Assembly (NCBI GenBank): GCA_946415705.1
Contig: CAMKTN010000013.1
Coordinates: 1 to 56,095 of the forward strand
Source of the DNA: an uncultured Prevotellaceae bacterium
GTDB taxonomy: Bacteria > Bacteroidota > Bacteroidia > Bacteroidales > Bacteroidaceae
Length of the DNA: 56,095 nucleotides
Direction of reading: 5' to 3'
Shown here: positions 1,356 to 47,736 of the stretch, piece after piece
Position numbering within the stretch: the first letter of the stretch is position 1
Layout: each line of letters starts with the position of its first letter
The notes under the pieces: model-generated
Databases searched by the model: none
What the model saw: only the letters and a program-made list of their open reading frames with translations
Told to the model about the DNA's origin: nothing
Position numbers and translations under genes: made by a program

Positions 1356-4300
1356 TTATTTCACGAATACTTTCCTACCATTAATGATGTATGTCTGTCC
1401 ACGACGCGTTTCCGTAACACGACGCCCGTCAAGCGTATAGATGACAGTTTTTCCACTCTCATCTGTAGCGACACCACGGATGCCCACAGGAGCTATATCC
1501 GTCACACGAAGAATACCTTGTTGGATATCCTTGGTATCCCAGAAGAGGCCCATCTCGGCATCTATCACCTGCGTCTCCAGAACTGGTGTACCCGTACAGG
1601 TTGTTACATCCTTCCACAGGAGGACACTGTCACCGACTTGTACATTAGAGGCAAATGTCGAGCCATAGTGCAAGCGGATCGTGCCGTTCATCGTCAATCG
1701 ATTAATGTTCTGGATACTCGTGCCACCCGTGTTCGTCACAACACCTGCGGCATTGGTTACGGCAGCACGTGCCAGGCCAAGATCCAAGACGGCACCGCTG
1801 GAGATGGTCACATTCTTGCCACCAAAATCCATGTAGCCTGTAGTGGCTGTTGCCGTAGCACCCACCTGCAACGTAGAGCCAGTACTAAAGGTATAAGAAG
1901 CATTGGTCAATGGCGTAGTACCCGTTGCGCCAGACAGTGTAGCGTTGCGTGCCACAGTCAGCGCTCCCGTTCCGAGCGTTGCTCCCGCCTTGACGCACAG
2001 CGTTCCGGCATTGACACGAGTGTTACCCGTATGAGTGCTCTTGCCACTGAAAGTAGCGATGCCAGTGCCTACTTTCGTAAGGTTGGAGTTGGCAGTCACG
2101 GTTCCGCCCCATGTCCAGTTTGCATCATTGCCCACCTGCCAGGTGTTAGCCCCACTGCCACCACTGCTGCTGAAGCTTGCATATCCTCCCAGCTTACCTG
2201 TGCCCGCAAGCTTGCCGATAGCGAATGTCTTGCCTGTGTTCTGAACTTCCAGACCTGCTGCAATATTCAAGGTTCCCTTCGGCATACCATTAGCCGTATT
2301 CAGTGTCCAACGTGGTCCTGAATCGTCGGTACGGCCCGTGGCATTGATGGTTCCTTCGAAATCGCGGAAATCCATGGCCAGCTGCGTACGCGTGGCGAAC
2401 CAAGTAGTTCCCTTGATCTCAGAGCAATAGATTGTCAACGTTCCCTCGCCAGTGACCTTGTTTGTATAGGTGGCATTATCCACGGAGCTCCAGCTTCCTG
2501 TCTTTCCTTTAGGTACATAAAGTGTAAAACTACTGCCCGTATTCTCGAGGTAGGAACCGCCTTGGAACTCTACTGTATTTGCGATTCTGTTGGCATTGAT
2601 ACATTGTACCGTACCTGCCGCCACAATGAGTCGCTGAAGTGAGGAGGAGGTGTTGAACTTCATCCATCCGGCTCCGCGTTTGGTAAGGACTGTGCCAGAG
2701 ATGGGTTTGTTGACAACGAAGTCGCCAGCATTATTGATGACACCGCCTGCTTCGCTGGCCATCTGCATCGGTGAGCCTTGTGTGACCACACCACTGGTAG
2801 AGAGCTCGGCCCCATTTTCTATCACAAACTTAGATGCCGTCGTCGTCACCGCACCGAGGTTGCCGTATGCCATGTTCTCGTTGCTGAGGTTGGTGACTAT
2901 CACCTTTCCGCCACTAATGCGCGTACCGCCTGTGAAGGTGTTATCGGTTTGAATAGTAAGGCTTCCAGTGCCATCCTTAACCAGCGAGGTCGCGCCTACG
3001 ATAGCACCTGTTCCTTTGAATGTGTAGCCCTTCGAGGCATCAACGATGACACTTTTCGCATCTATCTCGCCTTTGATGTTCACGGAGAGTTTCGTGGCAT
3101 CGTTGGTGAAGCGCACGATATCGCCCGTCACGAAATAGTCCGGTTCACCCTCCGGTTGGTCTGTGAGGCGGAAGTTGCGGTCGCCACCAAACTGCCAGTC
3201 AGCACTCTCCGCTCCCGTCCACAAGACGTCGCTTGCCTGACGAACATCTGTCACAACGAGATAGAGTTTGTCGCCGTCCTGTCGGAGTGAAGACCTCTTC
3301 TCTGTGCCCAGACCTTCAATGATGATCTCAGAAAGCGTTCCTTTGACCGTCTCCAAGCCCTCCATGATGAGGTAATCACCCGAGGCAATCGTGTTGCCGT
3401 GGTTGACGAGCTCAATGACCGGTGCGAGATACTTAGGTCCATAAGTGAGCCAAGTCCCCGACAGCTTTGTCTCGATTTCAAGAGTGCGCGTTGTGACCTT
3501 GTCGGCCTTCACGCCGTCAGCATAGATATCCAGTTGCAATCGCGAACCGAACCCGAGAATCAGGGAGTCTGTTGTGATGGCACCTTGTTTTTCAGCACCT
3601 CCGGGACGTATGGTAGCATTGTAATCCGCTTTAATACGTCTGAAGGAGCCGCCATCGGAATTCAATGCCGTATGGCGGTTGAGCCACAGTGAGGATTGCA
3701 ACATCGTACCCGAGAACGTCAGCGTACCATTCCATACGTCGGTCGGTGCCGTGTGGTTCATTGCCACCGCCGGCAGTTTGAGTTCACCTTCTCCCTGCTT
3801 GACGATTCGTGTTGCTCCAGCAAAGCCGCCGCCAGTAGCAGTGCAGGTATAGGTCGTGAAAGTCGGAGCGATTTTGCTGCTTGATTCTGCAGGATTGTTT
3901 CCCTGCACCCAGTGGGGCACGTTGAAGAACGCGACCTGAGGATGTGCGCCCTCGCTAATGGTGACGCTAAAATTACCGTTCGCAAATGCAAGCACCTGTT
4001 TATCATTCATGTCTGCACCGATGGTACCGCCGTTTGCCACAAGAACTCTTCCGGTGGTTGTCAATGCAGGAGGTGCTTCCGTGATACCTTCCAGCTCTCC
4101 CAGGAAATAGCTGGTATGAGGGGGCTGGTTGTAACCGATGGTTTCCCATACCATACCATTGCGATAGCCATGGTCATACCACAGCGAAGGGATACGGAAG
4201 GTTGTGGGTCTTGAGGTGGTATAGAGGCGCATGCCGGTACCGTTAGCCACCAGCAGTTCCTCACGCCAGTCGCCAAGGATATCACCCGTGAGGCAGGCAT

Positions 4301-5960
4301 TGTTCTTGGAATCGTTATTCAGGTGGCCCTCCGAGTTGAATATACGTCCGCCATCGAGCTTCTCAATTTTAGCGGCCTTGGCAGTACCGGGGCTGTCAAG
4401 GATCTCCGAGCAGAGGTCGCCATCCCAATAGATGCGGAAATTCAGGGCATAACCACCCTGTCCGCTGATAACCTTGTCCGCAGTGAGGCTGAGGACACCC
4501 GTCTGCGATGACTGTCCTACGCATCCCGGGTATCTATTGGTGAAATTGCCAGCAAGCGCACGGCCGTCATCACCGGTGCTCTGCATGCGATAATACATTT
4601 GTGATGTGGTGGCGTTGCGATAGTTCATTGCCGGCTCATCCTCGTTACAAGCAAAGAACTCCAGGCCCCAACGGTAGGGGTCGAGGTCTGAGCAGTGCTG
4701 CGCATCTCCGTGGCCAAGCCCCGTCGTCGAAAGACCCTTACCATTATCATCAATAATCATAGAGCCAAAGACTATCTCATCGCGCCCATCCAGATCTACA
4801 TCCTGAATACCGAAGTTGTGGTAGCCGTTGCCATACCACGGACTGTTCCAGCCTTGGTTGTTACTCCAATACCAACGCTGCGAGAGAGCATGGGTGGCCG
4901 GATCCACATTAAGCGCAACGAATTTATGGCGAGTATAGCAACCACGTCCGAGGAAGATGCTGGGATGCTGGCCATCGAGATAGGGAGCACCGAAATAGTG
5001 CTTTGTAGAGCGGTGACCGCCATCACCGTCCTGCCCCCAAACGGCGAGGCTCTGTGACTCTCCACTCTCATAACGTTTGAGAGGATATGCCATGGGGGTG
5101 AAGCTGTCTTTTGTACCATCCCAGCCGTAAGGTTCGCCCGTCTCGCCATTGAGGTAAAGCAGGTACTCATCGCCCACGCAGGTGTACTGGTCACGCGGAG
5201 CGTAATAGTTCATGTTACCGATGGCTATATCGTGACCTGTTTTGGTGTGAACATACATATTGTTAGCACCGCGCAGCAACACCTCTGCCTTGCCATCCAT
5301 GTCCCAGTCGAAAGCCACAGCATCCCACTGTTCATCGGGACCTGCCATCATGTTCGGACCAAGGTCTATCCACCACAAGCGCTCACCCGTGAGCTTGATG
5401 ATTTCAATACGGTGGAAGCGGGTTTTATTATTGGCATCGTTGACTCCACCTGTATAGTTACGCTTGCAGATGAGTTCTACAATTCCATCACCATCGACAT
5501 CCGCAGGCACGCAGTCATTAAACTCATATAATGAAGTGCAGTCTATTCCTGCCCTATCCACTGCTGGCTGGCACGGAATATCGAGATAGCCAGTATGGGG
5601 ATTATCGCTGACACCGTTCGTGAGATTTGAGATGCCGCTCCAGCGTTGGACTTCCTTGCAGAGCTGACCCTCCTGGCCACCTCTGACAGCAGCCACCTGA
5701 TACTTACTGGCCGCTGTTCCGGTTGCATGCACATAGTTGCTTACCTTCAGGCCGCCCTTGAGGAGCGACCCATTGCAGTAAAGATTATATGTCACATCGT
5801 GGTATTCCTCTGGAAGGATACGCCATGAAATAAAATTTCCAGAGCCGCTCATAGCCACAGTGGCTACAAGACCGCGGTCTAATTTGTCCGTGAAACGCTG
5901 CGCAAAGGCGGTCGCTGACAAACCAAACAGCATCACGAAAAGAAAGATTTTGTGTTTCAT
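1356..5960 (-). CDS. secreted PL11-type rhamnogalacturonan lyase with autotransporter-like repeats and T9SS tail
   Basis: Likely cleaves the rhamnogalacturonan I backbone of pectin by beta-elimination. A signal peptide (residues 1-20, ending AFA-Q) precedes a PL11/YesW-like catalytic region at about 22-625, with Ca-binding-type loops such as DVDGDGIVEL, DWDMDGKAEV and DVDLDGRDEI. Residues about 630-1490 are beta-rich, with passenger-associated-type repeats near 1005 (GGTRISGGKVIV) and 1315 (NTRVNAGTLCVKAG). The last 30 or so residues (IYTLDGRRV ... INGRKVFVK) look like a T9SS sorting tail, implying export to the surface or medium. At 1534 residues it is far longer than a typical ~600-residue PL11. 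It stands alone, with no SusC/SusD genes beside it. Family call is strong; the role of the middle region is unknown. Confidence 0.85.
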   Translation of the reverse strand: MKHKIFLFVMLFGLSATAFAQRFTDKLDRGLVATVAMSGSGNFISWRILPEEYHDVTYNLYCNGSLLKGGLKVSNYVHATGTAASKYQVAAVRGGQEGQLCKEVQRWSGISNLTNGVSDNPHTGYLDIPCQPAVDRAGIDCTSLYEFNDCVPADVDGDGIVELICKRNYTGGVNDANNKTRFHRIEIIKLTGERLWWIDLGPNMMAGPDEQWDAVAFDWDMDGKAEVLLRGANNMYVHTKTGHDIAIGNMNYYAPRDQYTCVGDEYLLYLNGETGEPYGWDGTKDSFTPMAYPLKRYESGESQSLAVWGQDGDGGHRSTKHYFGAPYLDGQHPSIFLGRGCYTRHKFVALNVDPATHALSQRWYWSNNQGWNSPWYGNGYHNFGIQDVDLDGRDEIVFGSMIIDDNGKGLSTTGLGHGDAQHCSDLDPYRWGLEFFACNEDEPAMNYRNATTSQMYYRMQSTGDDGRALAGNFTNRYPGCVGQSSQTGVLSLTADKVISGQGGYALNFRIYWDGDLCSEILDSPGTAKAAKIEKLDGGRIFNSEGHLNNDSKNNACLTGDILGDWREELLVANGTGMRLYTTSRPTTFRIPSLWYDHGYRNGMVWETIGYNQPPHTSYFLGELEGITEAPPALTTTGRVLVANGGTIGADMNDKQVLAFANGNFSVTISEGAHPQVAFFNVPHWVQGNNPAESSSKIAPTFTTYTCTATGGGFAGATRIVKQGEGELKLPAVAMNHTAPTDVWNGTLTFSGTMLQSSLWLNRHTALNSDGGSFRRIKADYNATIRPGGAEKQGAITTDSLILGFGSRLQLDIYADGVKADKVTTRTLEIETKLSGTWLTYGPKYLAPVIELVNHGNTIASGDYLIMEGLETVKGTLSEIIIEGLGTEKRSSLRQDGDKLYLVVTDVRQASDVLWTGAESADWQFGGDRNFRLTDQPEGEPDYFVTGDIVRFTNDATKLSVNIKGEIDAKSVIVDASKGYTFKGTGAIVGATSLVKDGTGSLTIQTDNTFTGGTRISGGKVIVTNLSNENMAYGNLGAVTTTASKFVIENGAELSTSGVVTQGSPMQMASEAGGVINNAGDFVVNKPISGTVLTKRGAGWMKFNTSSSLQRLIVAAGTVQCINANRIANTVEFQGGSYLENTGSSFTLYVPKGKTGSWSSVDNATYTNKVTGEGTLTIYCSEIKGTTWFATRTQLAMDFRDFEGTINATGRTDDSGPRWTLNTANGMPKGTLNIAAGLEVQNTGKTFAIGKLAGTGKLGGYASFSSSGGSGANTWQVGNDANWTWGGTVTANSNLTKVGTGIATFSGKSTHTGNTRVNAGTLCVKAGATLGTGALTVARNATLSGATGTTPLTNASYTFSTGSTLQVGATATATTGYMDFGGKNVTISSGAVLDLGLARAAVTNAAGVVTNTGGTSIQNINRLTMNGTIRLHYGSTFASNVQVGDSVLLWKDVTTCTGTPVLETQVIDAEMGLFWDTKDIQQGILRVTDIAPVGIRGVATDESGKTVIYTLDGRRVTETRRGQTYIINGRKVFVK

Positions 5961-6009
5961 TGATTGTAACTATAGTTTGTTATTCGAGGCAAATGACCAA
6001 TTTCCGGTG

Positions 6010-6017
6010 CAAAGATA
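6010..6017 (-). promoter_or_regulatory. -7 box for the lyase gene
   Basis: TATCTTTG on the minus strand, 50 bases before the lyase ATG. No convincing TTG box lies at the expected distance, so only the -7 element is called. Confidence 0.55.
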
Positions 6018-6108
6018 GCGTGTATTCTTAAAGAAAACGAAAAAAACAAAGGATTTTAACCAAACTTTCGTTCAAAAGGCACTAAAAACAAAGAAAATAT
6101 TCGCTTTG

Positions 6109-6140
6109 CTTGCCCAAACGCAAAAAAATATGTTACTTTG
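6109..6140 (+). promoter_or_regulatory. promoter of the glycan/lipid locus first gene
   Basis: CTTG (6109-6112), 20-base spacer, TTACTTTG (6133-6140). It lies 30 bases before the DUF4254 ATG and diverges from the lyase promoter. Confidence 0.65.
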
Positions 6141-6170
6141 CACACTTAACAATAACAAATACTACTGCTT

Positions 6171-6770
6171 ATGACATTCTCTGAGCTAGCCCGTCCCATC
6201 TTCGAACGCGCCATTCTCGACTACCACAAGGCTGACGATGTGGACACTCCGATGCACAATCCGTACAGCGAAGGCATCGAGGCCGACCTCTATCGCAAGT
6301 GTTGGATTGACACGGTACAATGGCATCTGGAGGACATCATCCGCGACCCGCAGATTGATCCGTTAGAGGCCTTGGCCCTCAAACGTCGCATCGACCAGAG
6401 CAACCAAGACCGCACAGATCTGGTGGAGACTATCGACAGCTACTTCTATACCAAGTACCACGATATCACTCCGCTCCCCGATGCAACCATCAACACTGAA
6501 AGTCCGGCATGGGCCGTCGATCGCCTCAGCATCCTGGCGCTGAAAATCTACCACATGCGAGAACAGGCTGAACGCTCCGATGCCAGCGAGGCACATCGCG
6601 CGACCTGCCAGCAGAAGCTCAATGTGCTGCTGGAGCAGCAGACAGACCTCTCCACCGCCATCGACCAGCTCTTGGCAGACATCGAGGCTGGGCGCAAATG
6701 GATGAAGGTGTATAAGCAGATGAAGATGTACAACGACCCCGATACGAACCCGGTATTGTATTCCAAATGA
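6171..6770 (+). CDS. DUF4254 family protein
   Basis: A 199-residue, predicted all-helical, charged cytoplasmic protein resembling DUF4254 (segments such as NPYSEGIEADLYRKCW near residue 31 and SPAWAVDRLSILALKIYHM near 110). No catalytic motif is recognisable and the family function is unknown to me. Its stop overlaps the start of the GT9 gene (ATGA). This tight coupling suggests it supports lipid A-core or surface-glycan assembly. It has its own promoter and heads the cluster. Confidence 0.8.
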   Translation: MTFSELARPIFERAILDYHKADDVDTPMHNPYSEGIEADLYRKCWIDTVQWHLEDIIRDPQIDPLEALALKRRIDQSNQDRTDLVETIDSYFYTKYHDITPLPDATINTESPAWAVDRLSILALKIYHMREQAERSDASEAHRATCQQKLNVLLEQQTDLSTAIDQLLADIEAGRKWMKVYKQMKMYNDPDTNPVLYSK

Positions 6771-7816
6771 CACACGTTATTGTGCTTCGTTTCTCAGCTA
6801 TGGGCGACGTGTTGATGACGCTTCCCGTTATCGACAGCTTTGCCCGTCAGCACCCCGACGTCCGCGTGACAGTCGTAAGCCGTCCTTGGGCGCAGCCGCT
6901 CTTCAGTCTGTTGCCATCAAACGTAGGATTCATGGCTGCCGACTTGAAAGGAGAGCACGCAGGCTACCATGGGCTTAACCTCTTAGCGCGAAGGCTTTTT
7001 GCCCTGCAGCCGACACACATCGCCGACCTGCACGACGTACTACGGACGAAATGGCTGCGCATGCGCTTGCATATCGCAGGACACCACGTGGCCCATATCC
7101 GAAAGGACCGACGTGCACGGAAAGCCTTCCTGTCTGCGGAGGTAAAAGTGCCGCAGACGAGCATGTTTGAGAAGTACGTGGATGTCTTTCGTCGTCTGGG
7201 TTTCGATGATTGGTCGCTGGATTTCAAGAGCCTTTATCCCCAAGGAGGTGCCGACCTCTCTACGGCAGTGCCCTCTTTCGACCCCTCTTTGCGCCCCGAG
7301 CGTCACTGGGTGGCCATCGCCCCGTTCTCCATACATGAAGGTAAGACATATCCTCAGGAACAGATGGAGGAGGTCATCCGTCAACTCAACGCCCGCGGTG
7401 ACACCCGTATCTTCCTCTTTGGCGCAGGCAAGACGGAGTCCGAAATCCTCGACCAATGGGCCGAGCGCTATGCTCACGCCGAAAACATGGCAGGCAAGCT
7501 CAACAACATCGCTGAAGAGTTGGCACTCATCTCACACTGCCAGGTCATGGTGAGCATGGACTCCGGCAATATGCACTTGGCCGCCTTAGCCGCCGTTCCC
7601 GTCGTCAGCATCTGGGGCGCGACGCACCCTTATGCGGGCTTCCTCGGCTATCAACAAAAACTCGACAACGTTCTGCAACGCACAGACCTCCCCTGCCGTC
7701 CCTGCTCCATTTTTGGTGACAAACCGTGCCAATTCGGCGACTATCGTTGTCTGACAGGCATCACTCCCGAAGCTGTGGTCGAGAAAGTGTCAGCCATCGT
7801 CTACGCCAACGCATAG
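6767..7816 (+). CDS. GT9 (heptosyltransferase-like) glycosyltransferase
   Basis: Probably adds a heptose or similar sugar to the LPS inner core from an ADP-activated donor on the cytoplasmic side. The 349-residue product starts with VLRFSAMGDVLMTLPVI, typical of the GT9 N-terminus. It carries a donor-site region with MVSMDSGNMHLAALAAVPVV and IWGATHPY in the C-terminal half. It overlaps DUF4254 by four bases and is followed 5 bases later by an LTA-synthase-like gene, so the three are probably one transcript. The acceptor cannot be inferred from sequence alone. Confidence 0.88.
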   Translation: MTHVIVLRFSAMGDVLMTLPVIDSFARQHPDVRVTVVSRPWAQPLFSLLPSNVGFMAADLKGEHAGYHGLNLLARRLFALQPTHIADLHDVLRTKWLRMRLHIAGHHVAHIRKDRRARKAFLSAEVKVPQTSMFEKYVDVFRRLGFDDWSLDFKSLYPQGGADLSTAVPSFDPSLRPERHWVAIAPFSIHEGKTYPQEQMEEVIRQLNARGDTRIFLFGAGKTESEILDQWAERYAHAENMAGKLNNIAEELALISHCQVMVSMDSGNMHLAALAAVPVVSIWGATHPYAGFLGYQQKLDNVLQRTDLPCRPCSIFGDKPCQFGDYRCLTGITPEAVVEKVSAIVYANA

Positions 7817-7821
7817 ATTGT

Positions 7822-9639
7822 ATGAGACAAAGAGTTACATTCCTACTTCGGATCTATTTGTGGACAATCCTCGTATTCTGTTTGGCCAAGATAGCCTTTA
7901 TGGTGAGCTGCCATACAGGGGATCTTACAATTACAGATTTGAAGGATGTACTCTGGCACGGGTTGACGCTTGACCTTTCAACAGCCCTGTATTTTCTCAT
8001 TCTGCCATTCCTCCTGACAATGGTGTGTGTCTGGTGGTATCGCCGCTCGGTCATCAACAAGGTTTTTTACACCTATTTTATGATCATCTCCGTCGCCTCT
8101 GCCTTGGCATTCGTGGCAGACTGCAGCCTATACCCCTTCTGGCGATTCAAGCTGGACGCCTCCTGTTTGCAATACCTGTCTTCCCCCAATGAGACCGCGG
8201 CCAGCGTGTCCACGGGTTATCTCATCATCCGGCTACTCATTCTGTTGGCCACGGCGGTATTCATCTTCTGGGGTTATGTGATTCCTATGCACCGGTGGAA
8301 AAATGTTACTGCTTCAGCCATTAAAAAAACGTTTGAAACGATCTTCTACATCCTCTGTATTCCGCTGCTTGTCATAGGCATCCGTGGCGGTCTGGGTGAA
8401 TCGACAACCAACATCGGACAAGTCTATTTCTCTCAGAACCAGTTCCTGAACCATGCCGCCGTGAACCCAGTCTTCAGCTTTCTGGCTTCTTTTGAGAAGA
8501 CGGCAAACCATATCGTGGACTATCATTTCTACGACGACGATGAATGTGCAGCACAACTGGAAGGCCTTTATCCCATTGCATCCACGGAGACTGATACCTT
8601 GCTCACTACCCAGCACCCCAATATCGTCATCGTACTCATGGAAAGTGCGGGGGACATCTTCAGCGAATATATGCCGAACCTGCAACGGCTAAAAGCTGAA
8701 GGCATCAACTTCTCAAACTGCTACGGTAACAGCTATCGGACAGACCGCGGCACCGTATGTACCTACAGCGGTTACCCTTCGTTCCCAACCTCCTCCGTCA
8801 TGAAGATGCCTCAGAAGACACGCTATCTGCCAAGCATCGCCTCCAGTTTGCGTAGAGAGGGATATCACACCTATTATCTCTATGGTGGTGATATCAATTT
8901 CACCAATATGCGCAGTTATCTGGTGACCACAGGTTGGGAGACGTTGACCTGGATGAAAGACTTTACGCAGCAGGAGCAGCACTCTGCGAAATGGGGTGTC
9001 AGGGATGACATCACATTCCATACCCTATACCAACAAATCACAGGTTTGCCCGAGGACGAGCGCTATCTCATCGGCTTCTCAACCCTCAGCTCCCACGAGC
9101 CCTGGGATGTGCCCATCAAGCAATATGAGGACGAAGTGCCCAATGCCTTCTACTACCTTGATACCTGCATCGGCGAATTCATGGAAAAGCTTAAGCAGAC
9201 ACCACAATGGGACAACCTGTTGCTTGTTTTCATCCCAGATCACAGCATAAATTACCGGGAATATTCGCAAACCCATCCGTTGCGCAACAAGATTCCCATG
9301 ATATGGACTGGCGGAGCCGTCAAGGCCCCCAAGGACATCCCCGTCCTCTGTAATCAGACAGACCTCGCCGCCACGTTATTAGGCCAGTTGCACCTGCCCC
9401 ATGACGACTTCCGCTGGAGCCGTGATGTGCTGAGTGCTTCCTATACCTATCCTTTTGCCATTCACACCTTCAACCACGGATTCTCGCTGATAGACAGTAC
9501 AGGATTCGTCGTCTATGACCTCGAAGCCCAACGTTTCTCGACAGTTGAGAGCACACAGCCTCAGCATCTGGAACGCATGGGGAAATCCATCCTGCAGGCC
9601 ACGACTGCAGACTTGAAATCATTAGAATCAAGCCATTGA
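7822..9639 (+). CDS. LTA-synthase/MdoB-like membrane sulfatase-fold phosphotransferase, copy 1
   Basis: Alkaline-phosphatase-superfamily membrane enzyme that likely transfers a phosphoglycerol or phosphoethanolamine-type group to a glycan or lipid outside the inner membrane. Five TM helices occupy about residues 8-190. The catalytic domain follows, with metal-site motifs VLMESAG (about 267), a candidate nucleophile Thr in RTDRGTVC (about 305), SSHEPWDVP and FIPDHS (about 470). Start 7822 follows the GT9 stop; an in-frame ATG at 7726 inside GT9 is rejected because it would add 32 residues before the first membrane helix. It differs from the next two copies around the nucleophile. Substrate is unknown. 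Confidence 0.82.
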   Translation: MRQRVTFLLRIYLWTILVFCLAKIAFMVSCHTGDLTITDLKDVLWHGLTLDLSTALYFLILPFLLTMVCVWWYRRSVINKVFYTYFMIISVASALAFVADCSLYPFWRFKLDASCLQYLSSPNETAASVSTGYLIIRLLILLATAVFIFWGYVIPMHRWKNVTASAIKKTFETIFYILCIPLLVIGIRGGLGESTTNIGQVYFSQNQFLNHAAVNPVFSFLASFEKTANHIVDYHFYDDDECAAQLEGLYPIASTETDTLLTTQHPNIVIVLMESAGDIFSEYMPNLQRLKAEGINFSNCYGNSYRTDRGTVCTYSGYPSFPTSSVMKMPQKTRYLPSIASSLRREGYHTYYLYGGDINFTNMRSYLVTTGWETLTWMKDFTQQEQHSAKWGVRDDITFHTLYQQITGLPEDERYLIGFSTLSSHEPWDVPIKQYEDEVPNAFYYLDTCIGEFMEKLKQTPQWDNLLLVFIPDHSINYREYSQTHPLRNKIPMIWTGGAVKAPKDIPVLCNQTDLAATLLGQLHLPHDDFRWSRDVLSASYTYPFAIHTFNHGFSLIDSTGFVVYDLEAQRFSTVESTQPQHLERMGKSILQATTADLKSLESSH

Positions 9640-9676: not shown

Positions 9677-11641
9677 ATGAAGTCACATCTCCAAAACAAT
9701 GCTCAAAAAGCCAGCCTGCTGCGTCTCATACTGGCTCTTTGCTGCAACGCCCTCCTTTTGGTTGTGTGTTACTTCATCTGTCGCATAGCTTTCTACCTAG
9801 AGAACTACTCCTATTTCGGAGCTCTTCCAGTATCAGAAGCCATCGACATCCTTCGTGGCGGCCTTCGCTTTGACCTTTCAGCCATCGCCTACAGCAATGC
9901 GCTATACCTGCTATTGCTCTTCTTCCCCCTGCACGGAAAGGAGGCTCGGTGGTGGCCTATGTTCCTACGCATCCTATTCGTGAGTGTCAACACCATCTGC
10001 CTGTCAGCCAACCTGGCCGATGCTGTTTATTTCCCATTCATCAAGCGTCGTGCCACGGCCTCCATCTTCACGGAGTTTCAGAATGACGACCTTACTAACA
10101 TTATCGGTATAGAGTTTGTCAACCATTGGTATCTGACATTGTTGGCTCTCCTCTTAGCCGTAGCTCTCTGGTTCCTATACAGAAGCCCTAAGCTCATCGT
10201 CAAGCCCCGATGGAAGTACTATCTCATACAAGTCATCGGTCTGTTACTCTCCGCACTGTTACTCATTGGCGGAATGCGTGGAGGCTTTGACCCAGAACTG
10301 CGGCCATTGCACAACGGTCATGCCCGCGAATATGTGATTACTCCCACTCACGCTGTTCTGGTAACCAATACACCATTCTCCATCTTCCGCACTTCCTCCA
10401 AGAAAGGCTACCCTGAAGTACACTATTTTGAAGAGAGCCAGTTAGAGCAGATTTATACGCCTATTCATGAGCTATCGTACGCTAACGATACTATACAACA
10501 CCACAAGGATAATGTTGTCATCATTGTCTTAGAGAGTTTTTCTACAGCCTATTCCAAACACCTCAACCCTTATGCTGAAGAGGGTTATACACCATTCCTG
10601 GACTCGCTAATGCGTGAAGGGCTAACGTATGACCTATCCCTTTCCAACGGCATCAGCAGCATAGACGCCCAAGCATCTGTTTTCGCATCCATCCCTATGC
10701 TTATAGAGAGTTTCATGAGTTCCCGTGCCACGATGAACGACCTCGATGGAATCGGTAATTATCTCAAGCCGTTGGGTTATACCACTGCCTTCTTCCATGG
10801 TGCCGACAATGGTTCCCTTTCCATCGACGGCTTTGTGAAAGCCTGCGGCATGGATGCCTATTATGGACGGCGTGAATTCAACAACGATGCCGAATGGGAT
10901 CACCATTGGGGTATCTGGGATGAACCCTTCATGCAATTCATGGCACAGACACTGAGCCACACCCCTGAGCCTTTCTGCGCAGGACTCTTCACAGTCACAT
11001 CACACCACCCCTTCCAAATCCCCCCTCAATACCGTGATACCTTCCCCGAAGGGAACCTGCCCATCTACAAAGCTATTCGCTATACAGACCATTCTCTTCG
11101 CCATTTCTTCGAAACCGCCAAGCAACAGTCATGGTACCCACATACTCTCTTCGTGCTAACAGGAGACCATATTAATATGCAACCCTATGCCGAGCTTTCC
11201 AATGATTTAGGGGCATTCATGGTTCCCGTTTTCTTCTATCATCCCACCGATACTACCTGGCGTGGACATCGCGCCGGCATCATACAACAAACAGATATCC
11301 TGCCCACAGTCCTGCACCACGTAGGCTATCAAGGCACCTATTTCTCCTTTGGGAACGATTTGCTAAACGATGCAGAGGAACACATGGGTGCCCTCTCCTA
11401 CATTCATGATCAATACCAATTTGTCCAAGATCATTACCTGCTTCAGTTTGACGGTGAGAAGACTACAGCATTCTATGATTTCCGCATAGACCCGCTCCTA
11501 CAGAACAATCAAGTAGTATCTCCTTCCTATGTGCAACCTCGCGAAGAGATGGAAACCAAGTTAAAAGCAGCTATCCAACAATACATGTCCAGAATGAATG
11601 CCAACCGCATTTGTATCAGACAATCACAGCAAAGTCAATGA
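9677..11641 (+). CDS. LTA-synthase-like membrane phosphotransferase, copy 2
   Basis: A 654-residue paralogue of the next gene, with five TM helices in the first 200 residues and an extracytoplasmic sulfatase-fold domain. Motifs: VIIVLESFS (about 279), SSIDAQASVFASIP (about 326, nucleophile region), TSHHPFQIP and TGDHIN (about 496). Where LtaS-type enzymes have a catalytic Thr, the aligned position here is Ser in SID. The C-terminus IQQYMSRMN is almost identical to copy 3, pointing to tandem duplication. Its stop overlaps the next start (ATGA). It is AT-richer than copy 3. Likely modifies the same surface glycan with a phosphodiester group. Confidence 0.82.
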   Translation: MKSHLQNNAQKASLLRLILALCCNALLLVVCYFICRIAFYLENYSYFGALPVSEAIDILRGGLRFDLSAIAYSNALYLLLLFFPLHGKEARWWPMFLRILFVSVNTICLSANLADAVYFPFIKRRATASIFTEFQNDDLTNIIGIEFVNHWYLTLLALLLAVALWFLYRSPKLIVKPRWKYYLIQVIGLLLSALLLIGGMRGGFDPELRPLHNGHAREYVITPTHAVLVTNTPFSIFRTSSKKGYPEVHYFEESQLEQIYTPIHELSYANDTIQHHKDNVVIIVLESFSTAYSKHLNPYAEEGYTPFLDSLMREGLTYDLSLSNGISSIDAQASVFASIPMLIESFMSSRATMNDLDGIGNYLKPLGYTTAFFHGADNGSLSIDGFVKACGMDAYYGRREFNNDAEWDHHWGIWDEPFMQFMAQTLSHTPEPFCAGLFTVTSHHPFQIPPQYRDTFPEGNLPIYKAIRYTDHSLRHFFETAKQQSWYPHTLFVLTGDHINMQPYAELSNDLGAFMVPVFFYHPTDTTWRGHRAGIIQQTDILPTVLHHVGYQGTYFSFGNDLLNDAEEHMGALSYIHDQYQFVQDHYLLQFDGEKTTAFYDFRIDPLLQNNQVVSPSYVQPREEMETKLKAAIQQYMSRMNANRICIRQSQQSQ

Positions 11642-13653
11642 CCAGAAACTCTACCATACTCACCTTCCTGCGCACACCACTGGCTTTTGTGTGCAACATG
11701 GCTTTGGCCTACGTGGTCTATTGGCTGTGCCGTGTGGTGTTCTGGGCTGAGAACCATGCTGCATTCCCCCAGTTCTGGAGCGGCAACTCCCTGTGCGACA
11801 TCTTCACGGGTGCCTGGATGTTCGACACCTCGGCCATCCTCTATACCAACGTGCTCTATGCCCTACTGATGCTCATTCCCCTGCACCTGAAGGAACGTAG
11901 CTGGTGGCAGATGATGGCGAAAGGGCTCTTCTTGCTGGTGAACAGTCTGGCCGTCATTGTCAACCTGTCCGACGCCGTATATTTCCAATACACAGGACGC
12001 CGCACTACGACCACTGTCTTCCAGGAGTTTTCCAACGAAGGCAACCTCGGAGGCATCGTGGGTGTTGAGTTGTTGCGCCACTGGTATTTGGTGCTCGTCG
12101 GCATCGCCCTTATAGTACTTCTTTGGAAGGTATATAGGCTTCCGTCTGAAGGCCTATACCTTCAGGCCGTAAGGCCTATACCTTCAAGCCATAAGACCAA
12201 GGTCTTCACGTCGAAGGGCCAAGGGCTTTATTATTACCTCCTGCATCTGGTGCTCTTCGCCGCCTACATTCCATTGACCGTTATCGGCATGCGTGGCGGT
12301 GCCACCACGGCTGTGCGTCCCATCACCATCTCCAATGCCAACCAGTATGTCGCGCGTCCAGCCGAAGCCGCTGTTATCCTGAACACGCCCTTCGCCCTTA
12401 TCCGCACGATTGGCAAAGCCAAGTTTATCACACCCGACTACTATAAGGATGCCGATGAAATGGACAAAATCTACACGCCCATTCATCAGCCTCAACCCGA
12501 CAGCACCTTCGTGAAGAAGAATGTCGTGGTGTTCATCATCGAAAGCTTCGGACGCGAATATATCGGAGCCCTCAACGAGACCTTGGAAGACGGACATTAC
12601 GCTGGCTATACTCCCTTCGTGGATGAGCTCTGCCGTGAGAGCGCCACGTTCCGCTGGTCGTTCTGCAACGGTCGCAAAAGCATCGACGGAATGCCCAGCA
12701 TCCTTTCCGCTATCCCCATGTTTGTGGAACCCTTTGTGCTGACGCCGGCCTCCATGAACACCTACGGCGGACTGGCACAGGAGCTCGACAAACACGGCTA
12801 CGAGACCGCCTTCTTCCATGGCGCCGAGAACGGCAGCATGGGCTTCCAGGCCTTTGCACGCAAGACAGGTTTCCAAAAATACTTCGGGCGCGACGAGTTC
12901 AATGCCGATTCCCGTTTCCGTGGGGATGAGGACTTCGACGGCATGTGGGCCATCTGGGACGAGCCCTTCATGCAGTTCTACTGTGCAAAGATGTCGGAAC
13001 TGAAAGAACCTTTCATGACCGCCCTCTTCACCGCCACGAGCCACCATCCCTATGCGATACCTGAAGCCTATCGCGACACGTTCCCCGAGGAGGGCATCAT
13101 CATCCACAAGTGCATCCGCTACACAGACCACGCCCTGCGCCGTTTCTTCGAAGAGGCCCGCAAACAACCGTGGTTCAAGAACACGCTCTTCGTGCTCACC
13201 TCAGACCATACGAACCTCAGCGACCACGCCTTCTACCAGAATGATATCGGTGGTTTCTGCTCACCCATCATCTTCTACGACCCCAGCGGCGAGCTCTTCG
13301 AGGCCGGTATGCGTGAAGCCATCGCCCAACACATTGACATCATGCCTAGCGTCCTGGGGCTCCTCAATCACAACGAGCCCTATCTTGCCTTCGGCTGCGA
13401 CCTCTTCCACACGCCCGCCGACAGCACATGGGCCGTCAACTACAACAACGGCATCTATCAGTATGTAAAGCACAACCGCCTGTTGCAGTTCGATTCCATG
13501 CATACTCACGCCGTTTATGAACTCACGGATAGCCTCCTTCAGCATAACCTCATCGATCAAGAGCCTCAGCTGCAGGCATTGATGGAACGAGAGCTGAAAG
13601 CCATCATCCAACAGTATATGTCTCGCATGAACGAAGACCGCCTCACCCCTTAA
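11638..13653 (+). CDS. LTA-synthase-like membrane phosphotransferase, copy 3
   Basis: A 671-residue paralogue of copy 2. Start 11638 overlaps the previous stop (ATGA); an ATG 27 bases upstream is possible but less coupled. Five TM helices are followed by a catalytic domain with FIIESFG (about 295), RKSIDGMPSILSAIP (about 344), TSHHPYAIP and TSDHTNLSDH (about 523). Relative to copy 2 it has extra residues in the loop before TM5, encoded by a 22-bp duplication (12149-12192). It ends in IQQYMSRMNEDR, matching copy 2. The GC-rich codon use contrasts with copy 2. Confidence 0.82.
   Translation: MTRNSTILTFLRTPLAFVCNMALAYVVYWLCRVVFWAENHAAFPQFWSGNSLCDIFTGAWMFDTSAILYTNVLYALLMLIPLHLKERSWWQMMAKGLFLLVNSLAVIVNLSDAVYFQYTGRRTTTTVFQEFSNEGNLGGIVGVELLRHWYLVLVGIALIVLLWKVYRLPSEGLYLQAVRPIPSSHKTKVFTSKGQGLYYYLLHLVLFAAYIPLTVIGMRGGATTAVRPITISNANQYVARPAEAAVILNTPFALIRTIGKAKFITPDYYKDADEMDKIYTPIHQPQPDSTFVKKNVVVFIIESFGREYIGALNETLEDGHYAGYTPFVDELCRESATFRWSFCNGRKSIDGMPSILSAIPMFVEPFVLTPASMNTYGGLAQELDKHGYETAFFHGAENGSMGFQAFARKTGFQKYFGRDEFNADSRFRGDEDFDGMWAIWDEPFMQFYCAKMSELKEPFMTALFTATSHHPYAIPEAYRDTFPEEGIIIHKCIRYTDHALRRFFEEARKQPWFKNTLFVLTSDHTNLSDHAFYQNDIGGFCSPIIFYDPSGELFEAGMREAIAQHIDIMPSVLGLLNHNEPYLAFGCDLFHTPADSTWAVNYNNGIYQYVKHNRLLQFDSMHTHAVYELTDSLLQHNLIDQEPQLQALMERELKAIIQQYMSRMNEDRLTP
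12149..12192. repeat. 22-bp tandem duplication inside copy 3
   Basis: Two adjacent 22-bp units starting AAGGCCTATACCTTCA differ at two positions. Because 22 is not a multiple of three, the second copy is read in another frame. A degenerate partial unit lies just before. The segment encodes an inter-TM loop absent from copy 2. Confidence 0.85.
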
Positions 13654-44814: not shown

Positions 44815-45117
44815 ATGAGTACAACAGCATTGACTAATTTGCGCGATTACCTGACAGGCACATTGGGTATCCAAGACATGATGTGGTTGGTAGAGGAAAT
44901 GAAGAATTTCATGCGAGGCCCCGAGGAAAAGCTCAAGCCATACACCAAAGAAGAACTGTTAGCACGGATTGCACAGTCTGAACGCGATTCCGCCGAAGGT
45001 AAAGTCTATGACTTTGATGACATGATGCGCGAACTAGAAGAAGAGTTCGCCCACGAAGATGCCGAGGAACTGGCTTGTATGGCACGTCAGGAACAAGAGT
45101 TTGCCGAAGCCGTATGA
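44815..45117 (+). CDS. antitoxin of a ParE-type module
   Basis: A 100-residue acidic protein directly upstream of and overlapping a ParE-like toxin (ATGA). The C-terminal half (KPYTKEELLARIAQSE, then an acidic helix) is like the toxin-wrapping tails of Bacteroidota antitoxins. The N-terminal half (LRDYLTGTLGIQDMMWLVEE) has no obvious ribbon-helix-helix or HTH motif I can name. Assignment rests mainly on position and composition. Confidence 0.7.
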   Translation: MSTTALTNLRDYLTGTLGIQDMMWLVEEMKNFMRGPEEKLKPYTKEELLARIAQSERDSAEGKVYDFDDMMRELEEEFAHEDAEELACMARQEQEFAEAV

Positions 45118-45425
45118 AGGTGACCATGACCGACTTCGCGAGACGACAGGTCCGCGAAACCGCCAAATACATTCAACAGGTATTTGGCAAGCGATACAGG
45201 GACAAATTCTTGGAGGATGTAAAAGAAACGCGCTTGTTACTTGCTAATAACCCGCACCTCGGATCGGTTGAACCACTTTTGTCCGATTCCCCTTCGGGCT
45301 ATCGAAGCATCGTGATTGCCAAACTCAACAAAATGATTTATCGCATATTGGATGAAAGTATCGAAATCGCTGACTTCTGGGATGTGAGACAAGCCCCCGA
45401 CACATTAGCCAGCCGCGTGAAGTAA
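45114..45425 (+). CDS. ParE/RelE-family toxin
   Basis: A 103-residue basic protein of the RelE/ParE superfamily. It opens VTMTDFARRQVRETAKYI, has a central NPHLGSVEPLL region and the family end MIYRILDESIEIADFWDVRQ. The start at 45114 overlaps the antitoxin stop; an upstream in-frame ATG at 45075 lies within the antitoxin gene and is rejected. ParE members poison gyrase, RelE members cut mRNA; the C-terminal pattern favours ParE. Confidence 0.87.
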   Translation: MKVTMTDFARRQVRETAKYIQQVFGKRYRDKFLEDVKETRLLLANNPHLGSVEPLLSDSPSGYRSIVIAKLNKMIYRILDESIEIADFWDVRQAPDTLASRVK

Positions 45426-45713: not shown

Positions 45714-45904
45714 GATTCATTCATGGTTTTTTTATGGTCAATTCATGTCCGATGTATGTTCGATAAAAGATTTAAGTCTCGATTTAAGTTAGATTTAAGT
45801 TCACTTCTTCATCCGTGTTTATCTTTGTAATCCGTGGTCGAAAGGAAAAGCCTCAGATTCTTTTCGTGTGTATGAACAACAGAGATTCATAGGGCTTGGC
45901 GGGC

Positions 45905-46058
45905 GGAAGAGCTTGCGGTGTGCGCCGGAAGAGCTTGCAGCGTGAGTCGAAAGAGCAAGGTGCGTGAGGTGGATCACCATGGTGGTCCACCCAGAAGATC
46001 TAGGCGCATCGGCCGAAAGGACTAGGCGCATCGGAGCGAGGGGCTAGGCGCATCGGGC
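45905..46058. repeat. 22-bp tandem repeat array (seven units)
   Basis: Seven adjacent 22-base units. Units 1-2 start GGAAGAGCTTGC, units 5-7 share TAGGCGCATCGG at 46001, 46023 and 46045, and unit 4 is the most diverged and contains an internal palindrome around CACCATGGTG. The GC-rich array is set in AT-rich DNA. The unit is not a multiple of three, so it is unlikely to be coding. Confidence 0.85.
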
Positions 46059-46070
46059 AACGGAATAGAA

Positions 46071-46176: not shown

Positions 46177-46491
46177 TTAAATAGCGATTTATATGGTTTA
46201 AATAGGCCTTTTTCGTGTTAAATAGCGGGTTTTTACTCGCTAAATAGGCACTTTTTCTTGCTAATTCAAGCCTTTTTCTGCTAATTTCTGTTGTTTTAGA
46301 TGCTAAATAGGGCATTTTCCAGCGCAATGACGATGAGCTGGAGGACATATCGCGCGACAGCATATTTCAAAAAAAGTGCCTATTTATCTCACTAAATATG
46401 GGTATTTAACCACAAAACAGCCTATTTAATAAGCAAAATAGCCTATTTAATAAGCAAAATAGCCTATTTAAACGCAAAAACGGCTATTTAA
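46177..46491. repeat. two opposed arrays of TTAAATAG boxes phased at about 21 bp
   Basis: Left array: boxes like YTAAATAG (two reduced to CTAATT) start at 46177, 46198, 46218, 46240, 46261, 46281 and 46303. Right array, inverted (CTATTTAA-type): 46380, 46402, 46422, 46443, 46464 and 46484. Steps are 20-22 bases, averaging 21, two helical turns. A spacer of about 70 bp (46311-46379) separates the arrays. A further inverted box at 46525 keeps phase after one gap. No credible coding capacity. Confidence 0.9.
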
Positions 46492-46500
46492 AATCAGTTA

Positions 46501-46786
46501 AACAATTGATTATCAGTAAAGAGGCTATATAATAGACTTTTAAAACTTTTATTTATATTTTTGAGGTCTTAGGCCAACCCTACAAAAGATCAACCAAGAA
46601 CGTAAATCAGGCATAAATCTGAACTTAAATCGATGAATTGGAAACAAATGTGCATAATGACCATCATCTCAGCCACAAATAAGCAAAAATATTTATTCGA
46701 ATTAATCGAACCAAATTATGCGCATTATGCACATTTATTTCCGTGTCTTTCCGCTCTGTTCCGTGTCTTTCCGTGATACAAAATGC
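46501..46786. other. AT-rich non-coding stretch with phrase-like repeats
   Basis: No gene seen. It holds an inverted pair of AAATGTGCATAATG-type words (46648 and 46715-46733; the word recurs at 49633). It also has a CATAAATCTGAACTTAAATC phrase (shared, inverted, with 54378) and about four decamers of TTTCCGTGTC type (46737-46776). Confidence 0.6.
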
Positions 46787-46824: not shown

Positions 46825-47103
46825 CTACTTCTCGTAGAACCCCTTCTCGCTGTACAGTGACCAACGCAGGTACATCTCCTGATAGTGATCCTTGATAAAA
46901 TTAGAAATCTTAGCTATCTCGCGGTCGTTCAATACACCTCGGTTCTGAACAACCGCATCGCCGTTGCTCTTCACGAAGAACTTGGCCGAACCTCCCTCAG
47001 TAAGTTTACTGTCACTGGCATGAACATGCATACACTCCACTACACAGAATGATGTGAAATACAGATAATACCCCACCACCTTAAAATCGTAATATTTCGG
47101 CAT
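46825..47103 (-). CDS. DUF4160 family protein
   Basis: A 92-residue protein with the DUF4160 plan: an N-terminal strand-rich segment ending CMHVHASDSK (the HxH near residues 26-28), AKFFVKSNGDAVVQNRGVL, and a C-terminal helix with a Trp (MYLRWSLYSEKGF). Often found with small antitoxin-like partners in mobile regions; function unknown. Last gene of a three-gene leftward cassette. Confidence 0.78.
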   Translation of the reverse strand: MPKYYDFKVVGYYLYFTSFCVVECMHVHASDSKLTEGGSAKFFVKSNGDAVVQNRGVLNDREIAKISNFIKDHYQEMYLRWSLYSEKGFYEK

Positions 47104-47106
47104 CGT

Positions 47107-47328
47107 TCAATCCTCCATGTATTTTAGGTTCTGTTTCAGGTAGCGGTCAGCTATGGAAAGCTCAATGTCGTCCATCGTGGTTTCAAGCACTTCGCCCTTC
47201 GAGCTGAACACAACAGCTTTATCCGGACTGTTCAAGTTGAGCACACGAATTAGGTCATTCTCACGAGTAAAAGCATACCCGTTTATAATAACATCGGCCT
47301 TATCGGCTACAGTTTTGATATCAAGCAT
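47107..47328 (-). CDS. small protein of unknown function (DUF4160 cassette, second gene)
   Basis: Not recognised. 73 residues, acidic, with VIINGYAFTRENDLIRVLNL and a C-terminal MDDIELSIADRYLKQNLKYM helix. It starts within the upstream gene's end (8-base overlap) and stops 3 bases before DUF4160, so all three genes are coupled. By position it could be an antitoxin-like partner, similar in layout to DUF2442-DUF4160 pairs, but I cannot show this. Confidence 0.7.
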   Translation of the reverse strand: MLDIKTVADKADVIINGYAFTRENDLIRVLNLNSPDKAVVFSSKGEVLETTMDDIELSIADRYLKQNLKYMED

Positions 47329-47641
47329 AAGCTAAACGTACACTTTTGATGGGTTTCAAGAATGATGCGGGGTCAATATATAATCCCTCTAGGATAGGTT
47401 TCAGATCTATATACTCTTCCTCTGGCTCGGTATTGTGGTTGTACCTAGCTAACACCACGAGGTAGCCGTCATCCCATTTCACCACGTCCACATACCGATC
47501 CAGACTGTAAGGTGCCCGGAAACGGATATTGTACCCACCAAAGCTAAAGGCTGTGAAGCCTCCGGCATTGCTGAGCAACGCCTCATGGCCCGTAGATTGA
47601 ATATGACCTCTATTTTTCATCTTCTGATTATTAACGACCAT
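47321..47641 (-). CDS. small protein of unknown function (DUF4160 cassette, first gene)
   Basis: Not recognised. 106 residues, soluble, beta-rich, with GHEALLSNAGGFTAFSFGGY and YVDVVKWDDGYLVVLARYN. The starts at 47641 and 47620 are both possible; a TATTTTTG box (47664-47671) is close upstream. It heads the three-gene cassette and has irregular, AT-rich codon use compared with the core genes. Confidence 0.65.
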   Translation of the reverse strand: MVVNNQKMKNRGHIQSTGHEALLSNAGGFTAFSFGGYNIRFRAPYSLDRYVDVVKWDDGYLVVLARYNHNTEPEEEYIDLKPILEGLYIDPASFLKPIKSVRLAYA

Positions 47642-47663
47642 TATTCGTAGCCGTTTCTGGCGG

Positions 47664-47671
47664 CAAAAATA
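47664..47671 (-). promoter_or_regulatory. -7 box of the DUF4160 cassette
   Basis: TATTTTTG on the minus strand, 23 bases before the ATG at 47641. Confidence 0.5.
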
Positions 47672-47736
47672 GCTATTTGTTTTTTAACCAACAATTTTTC
47701 CACGAAAAAAGTGGCAAACACCAGTTCAAAACCCAC

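Follow-up and report, generated by a model that had tools for sequence, protein, structure and literature searches.

The window, the whole stretch of 56,095 nucleotides analysed here from an uncultured Prevotellaceae bacterium, contains two mirrored arrays of phased boxes that represent the cis portion of a primase-helicase module whose genes are missing here. The same arrays recur at four further sites of the genome, and at one of them, hereafter C32, they flank a helicase gene. From sequence comparison, we are moderately confident that the arrays are iteron-like sites of a PriRep-like helicase, constituting the cis half of a two-gene module that has been dispersed in gene-less form.

Two mirrored arrays phased at 21 bp

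The left arm (46177–46323, forward strand) consists of seven ordered units of about 21 bp that point right. Units 1–4 and 7 carry TAAATAG boxes, with (T/C)TAAATAG starting at 46177, 46198, 46218, 46240 and 46303, and units 5–6, starting at 46260 and 46280, carry degenerate GCTAATT boxes. The right arm (46372–46491, reverse strand) comprises six CTATTTA units of about 21 bp pointing left, whose boxes start at 46380, 46402 (degenerate), 46422, 46443, 46464 and 46484. The initial annotation had counted seven boxes pointing right and six pointing left. The six were recovered, one of them degenerate; the seven are present in order, although those at 46260 and 46280 are weak. The steps, first given as 20, 21 or 22 bp, do centre on units of about 21 bp but range from 20 to 23 bp.

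To compare this periodicity with shuffled sequence, as the annotation had proposed, we searched for chains of any 7-mer with at most one mismatch and steps of 20–22 bp. The longest chain in the arrays was 6, and the best among 200 dinucleotide shuffles was 4, reached once. The mirrored 21-bp arrays are therefore genuine and far above shuffled sequence. An 85-aa ORF overlaps them. We reject a coding repeat: 20- and 22-bp steps break the reading frame, as had been argued from the outset, and in the relatives read the arrays lie outside the helicase gene.

The two arms form an inverted repeat of 59 nt that is 73% complementary, in agreement with the suggestion that they could pair, and their single-strand fold beats 100 of 100 shuffles (z −4.7 as DNA and −5.7 as RNA). 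A strong fold is expected from the layout, since the arrays are mirrored. That the region is a transcribed hairpin, either a structured RNA or a terminator, is a very improbable reading despite these z-scores. No Rfam family matched the arrays at gathering score, at C32 the arms are separated by about 2.4 kb that include a gene, and phasing by helical turns would be meaningless for an RNA stem. A tRNA scan of the region likewise returned none.

The feature extends beyond the mirrored arms first described. To their left lies a GC-rich array with a period of 22 bp (45893–46066, forward strand; seven units from 45905, with boxes GAAGAGCTTGC, then CTAGGCGCATCGG), in register with a 24-bp palindrome, GGTGGATCACCATGGTGGTCCACC (45968–45991). 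The spacer between the arms (46324–46371) contains no clear unwinding element and is only 52% AT (window 49%). To the right of the arms follows an AT-rich tail (46492–46570, 78.5% AT), which is partly common to the copies described below and beyond which similarity fades. Any proteins bound by the 22-bp array may be distinct from those of the 21-bp arms.

Five copies, one of which contains genes

We searched the genome's own assembly (84% complete) for further copies of the element and found four sites, C6, C19, C1 and C32, giving five copies with the window. At C6, C19 and C1 both arms are present with no gene between them. At C32 the position of the spacer is occupied by a 735-aa primase-helicase gene (5483–7690) with BT4734-like_N and VapE-like helicase domains. 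The left arm (5161–5299) lies upstream of this gene, and the right arm (7691–7828) separates it from a downstream 197-aa ORF with an HU-HIG domain, a family reportedly named by Burroughs and colleagues in 2017. No VapE-type match was found near the window, C6, C19 or C1 copies. Thus, the initial statement that no gene explains the arrays is true of the window, but not of the C32 copy in the same genome.

The copies share a detailed architecture. In each of them the left arm has seven units in the same order and with the same irregular steps; a second unit of 20 bp and a third of 22 bp occur in 5/5, and since the same units are irregular in all five copies, the irregularity is not noise. The right arm has 6 to 9 units among the four gene-less copies, which are 73–90% alike along the main aligned stretch and all carry TCGCGCGAC in the spacer. 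All five copies also have the 22-bp-period array beside the palindrome, on the left. At C32 this array has the layout seen in the window with a similar box (CTAGGTGCGTTGG), and the palindrome shows no difference among the window, C6, C1 and C32 and has two mismatches in C19.

A BLAST search of the module against 101 genomes (the own genome and 100 related ones) found it in the own genome only, besides one weak 57-bp match. A phage or plasmid source of the element was considered and rejected on the basis of sequence searches. One 32-base core of the left arm, searched for exactly, does not occur in viral_contigs; the helicase relatives among plasmid and phage records all stay below 60% identity; and the viral relatives (80 loci kept of 462) are distant, their best segments being 23–36% identical.

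At C32, scanning two neighbours identified a sugar transferase and an NTP_transf_5 protein, and the next ORF resembles, by eye, a UDP-sugar dehydrogenase. In the window, the element is followed by a DUF7724-DUF7723-DUF4160 cassette (46825–47700) that is also found at L329:1439–2314 and L330:1513–2313, the identity in these two other species being 85% and 75%. Conservation of the cassette in G155 and G158 stops at the end of DUF4160, at its stop codon; by this comparison, the window element is not part of it. In L329, another palindromic array with units of about 23 bp (by eye) follows DUF4160, and the three genes are possibly an accessory cassette that lands beside arrays. To the left of the element, a two-gene unit (44815–45425), whose second protein matches ParE (PF05016), is likely a toxin-antitoxin pair.

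The linked helicase resembles PriRep1

A comparison of the C32 helicase clade with solved chains (E up to 0.01) gave a single match, 7pds (E 3e-11), deposited as PriRep1 with dsDNA. The same entry is the top Foldseek match of the C32 model, with modest TM-scores of 0.28 and 0.42. Because confidence in the model is low across the helicase core (mean pLDDT 68, with residues 496–582 under 50), we used, besides the sequence match, only the order of its C-terminal elements, which is that of a predicted winged helix. NCBIfam has no family for the C32 helicase, and PADLOC reported a CRISPR-associated PrimPol match on its primase domain.

The Walker A Lys and Walker B Asp-Glu are kept in 92 of 94 aligned proteins, with gaps in the other two, so that by sequence the helicase site of the linked protein is intact. 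The primase domain was read from one MAFFT alignment with 21 clade rows, five of which repeat others. Position 1 of motif I is Asp in 17 of these rows; position 3 is Gln in 14 and Glu in three, the second Asp/Glu being mostly absent; and the His position of motif II is Lys in 18 rows, as it is in 55 of 73 rows outside the clade. Active AEP primases have hDhD/E as motif I and sxH as motif II, according to the available portion of PMC5862659, a pattern from which most rows of the C32 clade depart in both motifs. Since these motifs are degenerate in most members, self-priming appears doubtful and may be lost.

These observations bear on whether every copy could be an active extra chromosomal origin fired by the C32 helicase, which we regard as quite improbable. 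Repeats beside a helicase gene would fit SaPI and SCCmec, as described in the accessible text of PMC7581432, and the Walker residues are conserved as stated. However, the primase residues are mostly degenerate, the spacer is not AT-rich, and five extra origins would presumably be costly.

We instead propose that the element corresponds to the cis-acting half of a helicase and HU-HIG module, copied without the genes. Its boxes would be iteron-like sites for the cognate helicase, through the predicted C-terminal winged helix, and/or for the HU-HIG protein, with the proteins lined up along a single helical face at intervals of two turns. The mirrored arms would then load two assemblies facing each other, as suggested by relatives that are initiators binding short repeats and by the winged-helix order at the end of the C32 model. 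The window, C6, C19 and C1 copies would be orphan sites still open to binding by the C32 proteins, perhaps serving as bound platforms or decoys or persisting as remnants. Among the options originally listed, a nucleoprotein platform or origin-like iteron site comes closest, given that the same arrays flank a helicase gene matching 7pds, although a multicopy gene-less element with an attached 22-bp array had not been foreseen. The recombination-site option gained no specific support.

Box sequences change while layout and phase mostly persist

The C32 helicase has a match at 1e-60 in 49 of 139 same-genus genomes, its own included. Flanking sequence was inspected at C32 and at the loci of the 14 relatives closest to it (15 loci, termed the clade). 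The nearest relative (G147 C42), with a helicase 77% identical, has TAAATAG-type boxes in the same layout. The boxes at the other loci include GTGTAAT, GTAGTTT, AGGGTGA, GTGAAAA and more. To detect mirroring irrespective of box sequence, we counted 8-mers common to the upstream flank and the reverse-complemented downstream flank: 12 of the 15 loci beat all of 200 shuffles, and three (G148 C61, G019 C142 and G143 C22) did not. Two loci that passed, G105 C131 and G148 C20, nevertheless have more direct than inverted matches. The same test was passed by none of six own-genome VapE-type genes (six of seven, C10 being left out).

Phasing was assessed with one box per locus, picked by shared counts rather than by spacing, and with steps of up to 45 bp. 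Overall, 65 of 78 steps lie no more than 1.5 bp from a multiple of 10.5 (49 of 61 when the two TAAATAG loci are excluded); phase this strong never arose in 20,000 draws of random steps, steps within one array not being independent of each other. The picked box is weak at G105 C160, G148 C61, G148 C20 and G178 C40. In some loci even the order of steps is mirrored, as in G003 (upstream 11,20; downstream 20,11) and G043 (upstream 11,12,8; downstream 8,12,11). Sequence across the clade thus indicates that the box changes while the mirrored layout and helical phasing mostly persist, and the proposed check of whether phase is conserved as sequence drifts came out positive in most relatives read.

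HU-HIG was found in all ten downstream ORFs scanned among the 14 relatives, these ten having been chosen as HU-like. Of the remaining four relatives, G103 C65 has an ORF that looked alike; the other three have either a dissimilar first long ORF or none.

The arrangement at C32 could also suggest operators, with the arrays regulating the helicase and HU-HIG genes by autoregulation upstream of each and with the gene-less copies forming a regulon or decoys. The end of the left array is indeed upstream of the helicase gene, the right array separates the two genes, and HU-HIG is a DNA-binding family. Nonetheless, the right array keeps its opposite orientation though both genes read the same way, even where the box has changed, and operators have no need of such a mirror. 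Moreover, two of the gene-less copies occupy long intergenic regions, in one case between convergent genes. We therefore consider regulation by operators unlikely and retain facing binding arrays as the preferred reading.

A second inverted-repeat test covered 80 named loci, of which 77 were testable and three too short. Fourteen passed, namely 6/6 of the closest relatives and 8/71 of the others; five of the six (L091, L092, L094, L095 and L096) are clade loci already counted above, and L093 alone is new. Because of this difference, we assign the mirrored arms to the C32 clade and not to the entire BT4734 family, in which the wider feature is the 22-bp array.

22-bp arrays precede many BT4734 genes

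BT4734/VapE relatives numbered at least 364 among the matches listed in a scan that was not limited to any phylum, and all 80 loci kept from these were Bacteroidota. Surveying 75 of the 80, we detected an array with a period of exactly 22 bp within 500 bp upstream of the BT4734 gene at 40. Periods of 21 and 23 bp were found at three and four loci, respectively, and all other periods from 15 to 33 bp at none. Counted as locus-bins, 47 of 153 upstream bins contained a 22-bp array, compared with 13 of 3056 elsewhere, and 12 of these 13 were located 500–1000 bp upstream or at the gene start. The surveyed loci are not fully independent, as L108 and L111 share one array.

Unit identity follows protein identity (Mantel r 0.40, equalled in 0 of 2000 permutations, 41 loci). 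Palindromic unit consensuses, with 7 or 8 of 8 positions paired, occur at 14 of the 41 loci, versus 2.8% of shuffles; in the window, the 24-bp unit is palindromic and the TAAATAG box is not. As a control, twenty stretches of 20 kb from the own genome were examined, in which period 22 gave nine arrays and any other period 0 to 4. Since period 22 is the commonest in this control too, 22-bp arrays are also a dispersed class.

Individual loci illustrate further arrangements. The BT4734 gene of Bacteroides acidifaciens (L108, about 5001–6956) has a long 22-bp array of the GAAACTTTAGTTTC type with about eight units (by eye), together with mirrored GTGACAG boxes on both flanks. That of Bacteroides faecalis (L148, about 5001–6749) is flanked by inverted repeats of about 100 bp (by eye), and the gene of L119 (about 3991–5703) by longer ones (by eye), in both cases beyond shuffles. 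Within the window, a palindromic array of the GAAGGCCTATACCTTC type with a 22-bp period (12125–12217) lies in frame in an LTA-synthase-family ORF (11611–13653). The length of this segment varies among homologues, and the seven closest retain it.

Other unit families are also scattered without genes

In one BT4734 subgroup, several units have the core CAYNNRTG with changing arms. We searched 139 genomes for exact two-unit patterns, and a reversed control pattern gave 0 each time. GTCCCA arms occurred in eight genomes, with five sites in the own genome (G000), nine in G147, six in G026 and one each in five others. TTTGCCA arms occurred in three genomes (five sites in G147, four in G154 and one in G040), and TTTACCA arms in one (four sites in G041). 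Linked BT4734 genes were identified for each family: for GTCCCA at G000 C4, G000 C11, G147 C60 and G056 C70, and at G178 C12 with a slightly different unit; for TTTGCCA at G147 C36; and for TTTACCA at G041 C4. No helicase match was found adjoining the TTTGCCA arrays of G154 and G040, in assemblies 85% and 84% complete. A BLAST search with the left flank of the G147 helicase locus detected no gene-less copy of the TAAATAG-type module in G147. Closely similar helicases offer a natural case for locating the residues that set specificity: G173 C19 is 87–88% identical to G000 C4 and C11, and the arms differ (TTTCTCAT...GATAAA in the former, GTCCCA...TGGGAC in the latter two).

One GTCCCA array of the own genome lies in frame within a 542-aa ORF on C19. 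The three closest homologues of this ORF (88, 90 and 82% identical) have no array segment and a fourth (77%) has it; the array-bearing linker varies in length in further homologues. The GTCCCA array of G147 is found at the same distance from nagB as in the own genome, which suggests, at the level of sequence, that this insertion predates the split between the two.

Could the copies have arisen passively, by segmental duplication or repeat recombination, with the proteins uninvolved in their spread? The copies do lie amid other dispersed repeats, and the flank they share differs in extent. For the C19 copy, the sequence after nagB also differs: a miaB-like gene (by eye) follows in G173 and G147, and the element in G000. 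This comparison matched 129 of 139 genomes, with 30 loci fetched and seven relatives read, and such a difference in gene order proves nothing on insertion. No flanking duplication common to the four gene-less copies was seen, and the comparisons yielded no clean empty site corresponding to the window copy. The C19 element has a terminator-like hairpin and some 40 bp roughly repeated on both sides (by eye, about 29 of the 40 bases agree), which is too weak to call a duplication. Against passive duplication stand the three additional unit families with copies confined to few genomes, and the lack of the array segment in the three closest homologues of the interrupted C19 ORF, though linker length varies elsewhere. 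Furthermore, a BT4734 match at 1e-60 is present in seven of the eight GTCCCA genomes versus 49 of 139 overall (Fisher p 0.003, for a pattern that was itself derived from BT4734 loci). Purely passive spread is consequently distinctly unlikely in our estimation.

Since three more BT4734-linked unit families have scattered gene-less arrays, we suggest that the arrays behave as non-autonomous repeats tied to a helicase gene, much as REP sequences are tied to RAYT. A broader generalization, tentative and in our view somewhat doubtful, is that BT4734/VapE and HU-HIG genes form Bacteroidota-wide dispersal systems, whose own phased arrays spread gene-less, also into ORFs, with fast turnover of boxes, so that a helicase rather than a transposase would shape these genomes. 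If the helicase does drive dispersal, repeats would be spreading by a route that involves no known transposase or integrase. Bacteroidota carry many BT4734/VapE genes, and because a candidate cognate site can be read from sequence for each gene, their function becomes testable, with binding, specificity and spread assayable on defined DNA. The locus-specific arrays with conserved spacing also provide natural data on the evolution of DNA-binding specificity.

Comparison with known systems

Iteron origins consist of direct repeats of about 17–22 bp in helical phase. The direct repeats of the window, at about 21 bp and helically phased, have this size and phase, and a gene of initiator type adjoins the repeats at C32, with none near the window, C6, C19 or C1. 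According to the available part of PMC7581432, PriRep-type initiators bind short repeats located immediately after the initiator gene itself, perhaps as two hexamers; the C-terminal domain of Cch2 binds the repeats; and two facing hexamers are proposed at SaPI-type origins. PriRep1 (7pds), SaPI Rep and Cch2 thus resemble C32 in having a VapE-type helicase with repeats directly beside the gene, and the PriRep-type helicase of phage-inducible islands (PICI/SaPI) is found at C32. The likeness to the repeat-binding domain of Cch2 lies in the predicted C-terminal winged helix. Unlike PriRep, SaPI and SCCmec, however, the C32 gene stands singly within a polysaccharide locus, and the neighbours that were read include no island genes; it has two mirrored arrays, one per side, and a separate 22-bp array; gene-less copies are scattered in the chromosome; and the primase site is degenerate.

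Two further systems share some of these properties. pRN1 (ORF904), as far as the accessible portion of PMC4234260 describes it, combines an AEP-type domain, a helicase and a winged helix, with a cis structure right after the gene that is kept as sequence drifts. It differs in being an episomal plasmid with one 100-nt stem-loop and no phased boxes. PINSR, a 188-bp repeat of Prevotella intermedia, is likewise dispersed, intergenic and non-coding, in a related genus, but is reported without terminal inverted repeats, and the available text (PMC4755523) describes no linked gene or phased array. The literature searched, mostly without subscription papers and hence weak evidence, contained no description of such arrays and no function or DNA site for BT4734/VapE genes. 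The similarly spaced arrays that many related genes in Bacteroidota carry point to a partnership, so far apparently undescribed, between a replication-type enzyme and scattered arrays.

The dispersal resembles that of REP sequences and RAYT, in which, by the accessible portion of PMC3733652, a cognate repeat lies beside a chromosomal gene and gene-less copies are scattered, with unit sequences confined to few species and some families palindromic. In contrast to RAYT (TnpA-REP), the array-linked gene is a primase-helicase: no Y1 HUH transposase was found among the array-linked genes, which encode BT4734-like_N/VapE and HU-HIG proteins instead. Unlike REP, the arrays run in 22- or 21-bp steps, and the TAAATAG box lacks the palindromic form. 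Taken together, the system is best described as an iteron-and-initiator variant with REP-like dispersal, and as a member of neither class.
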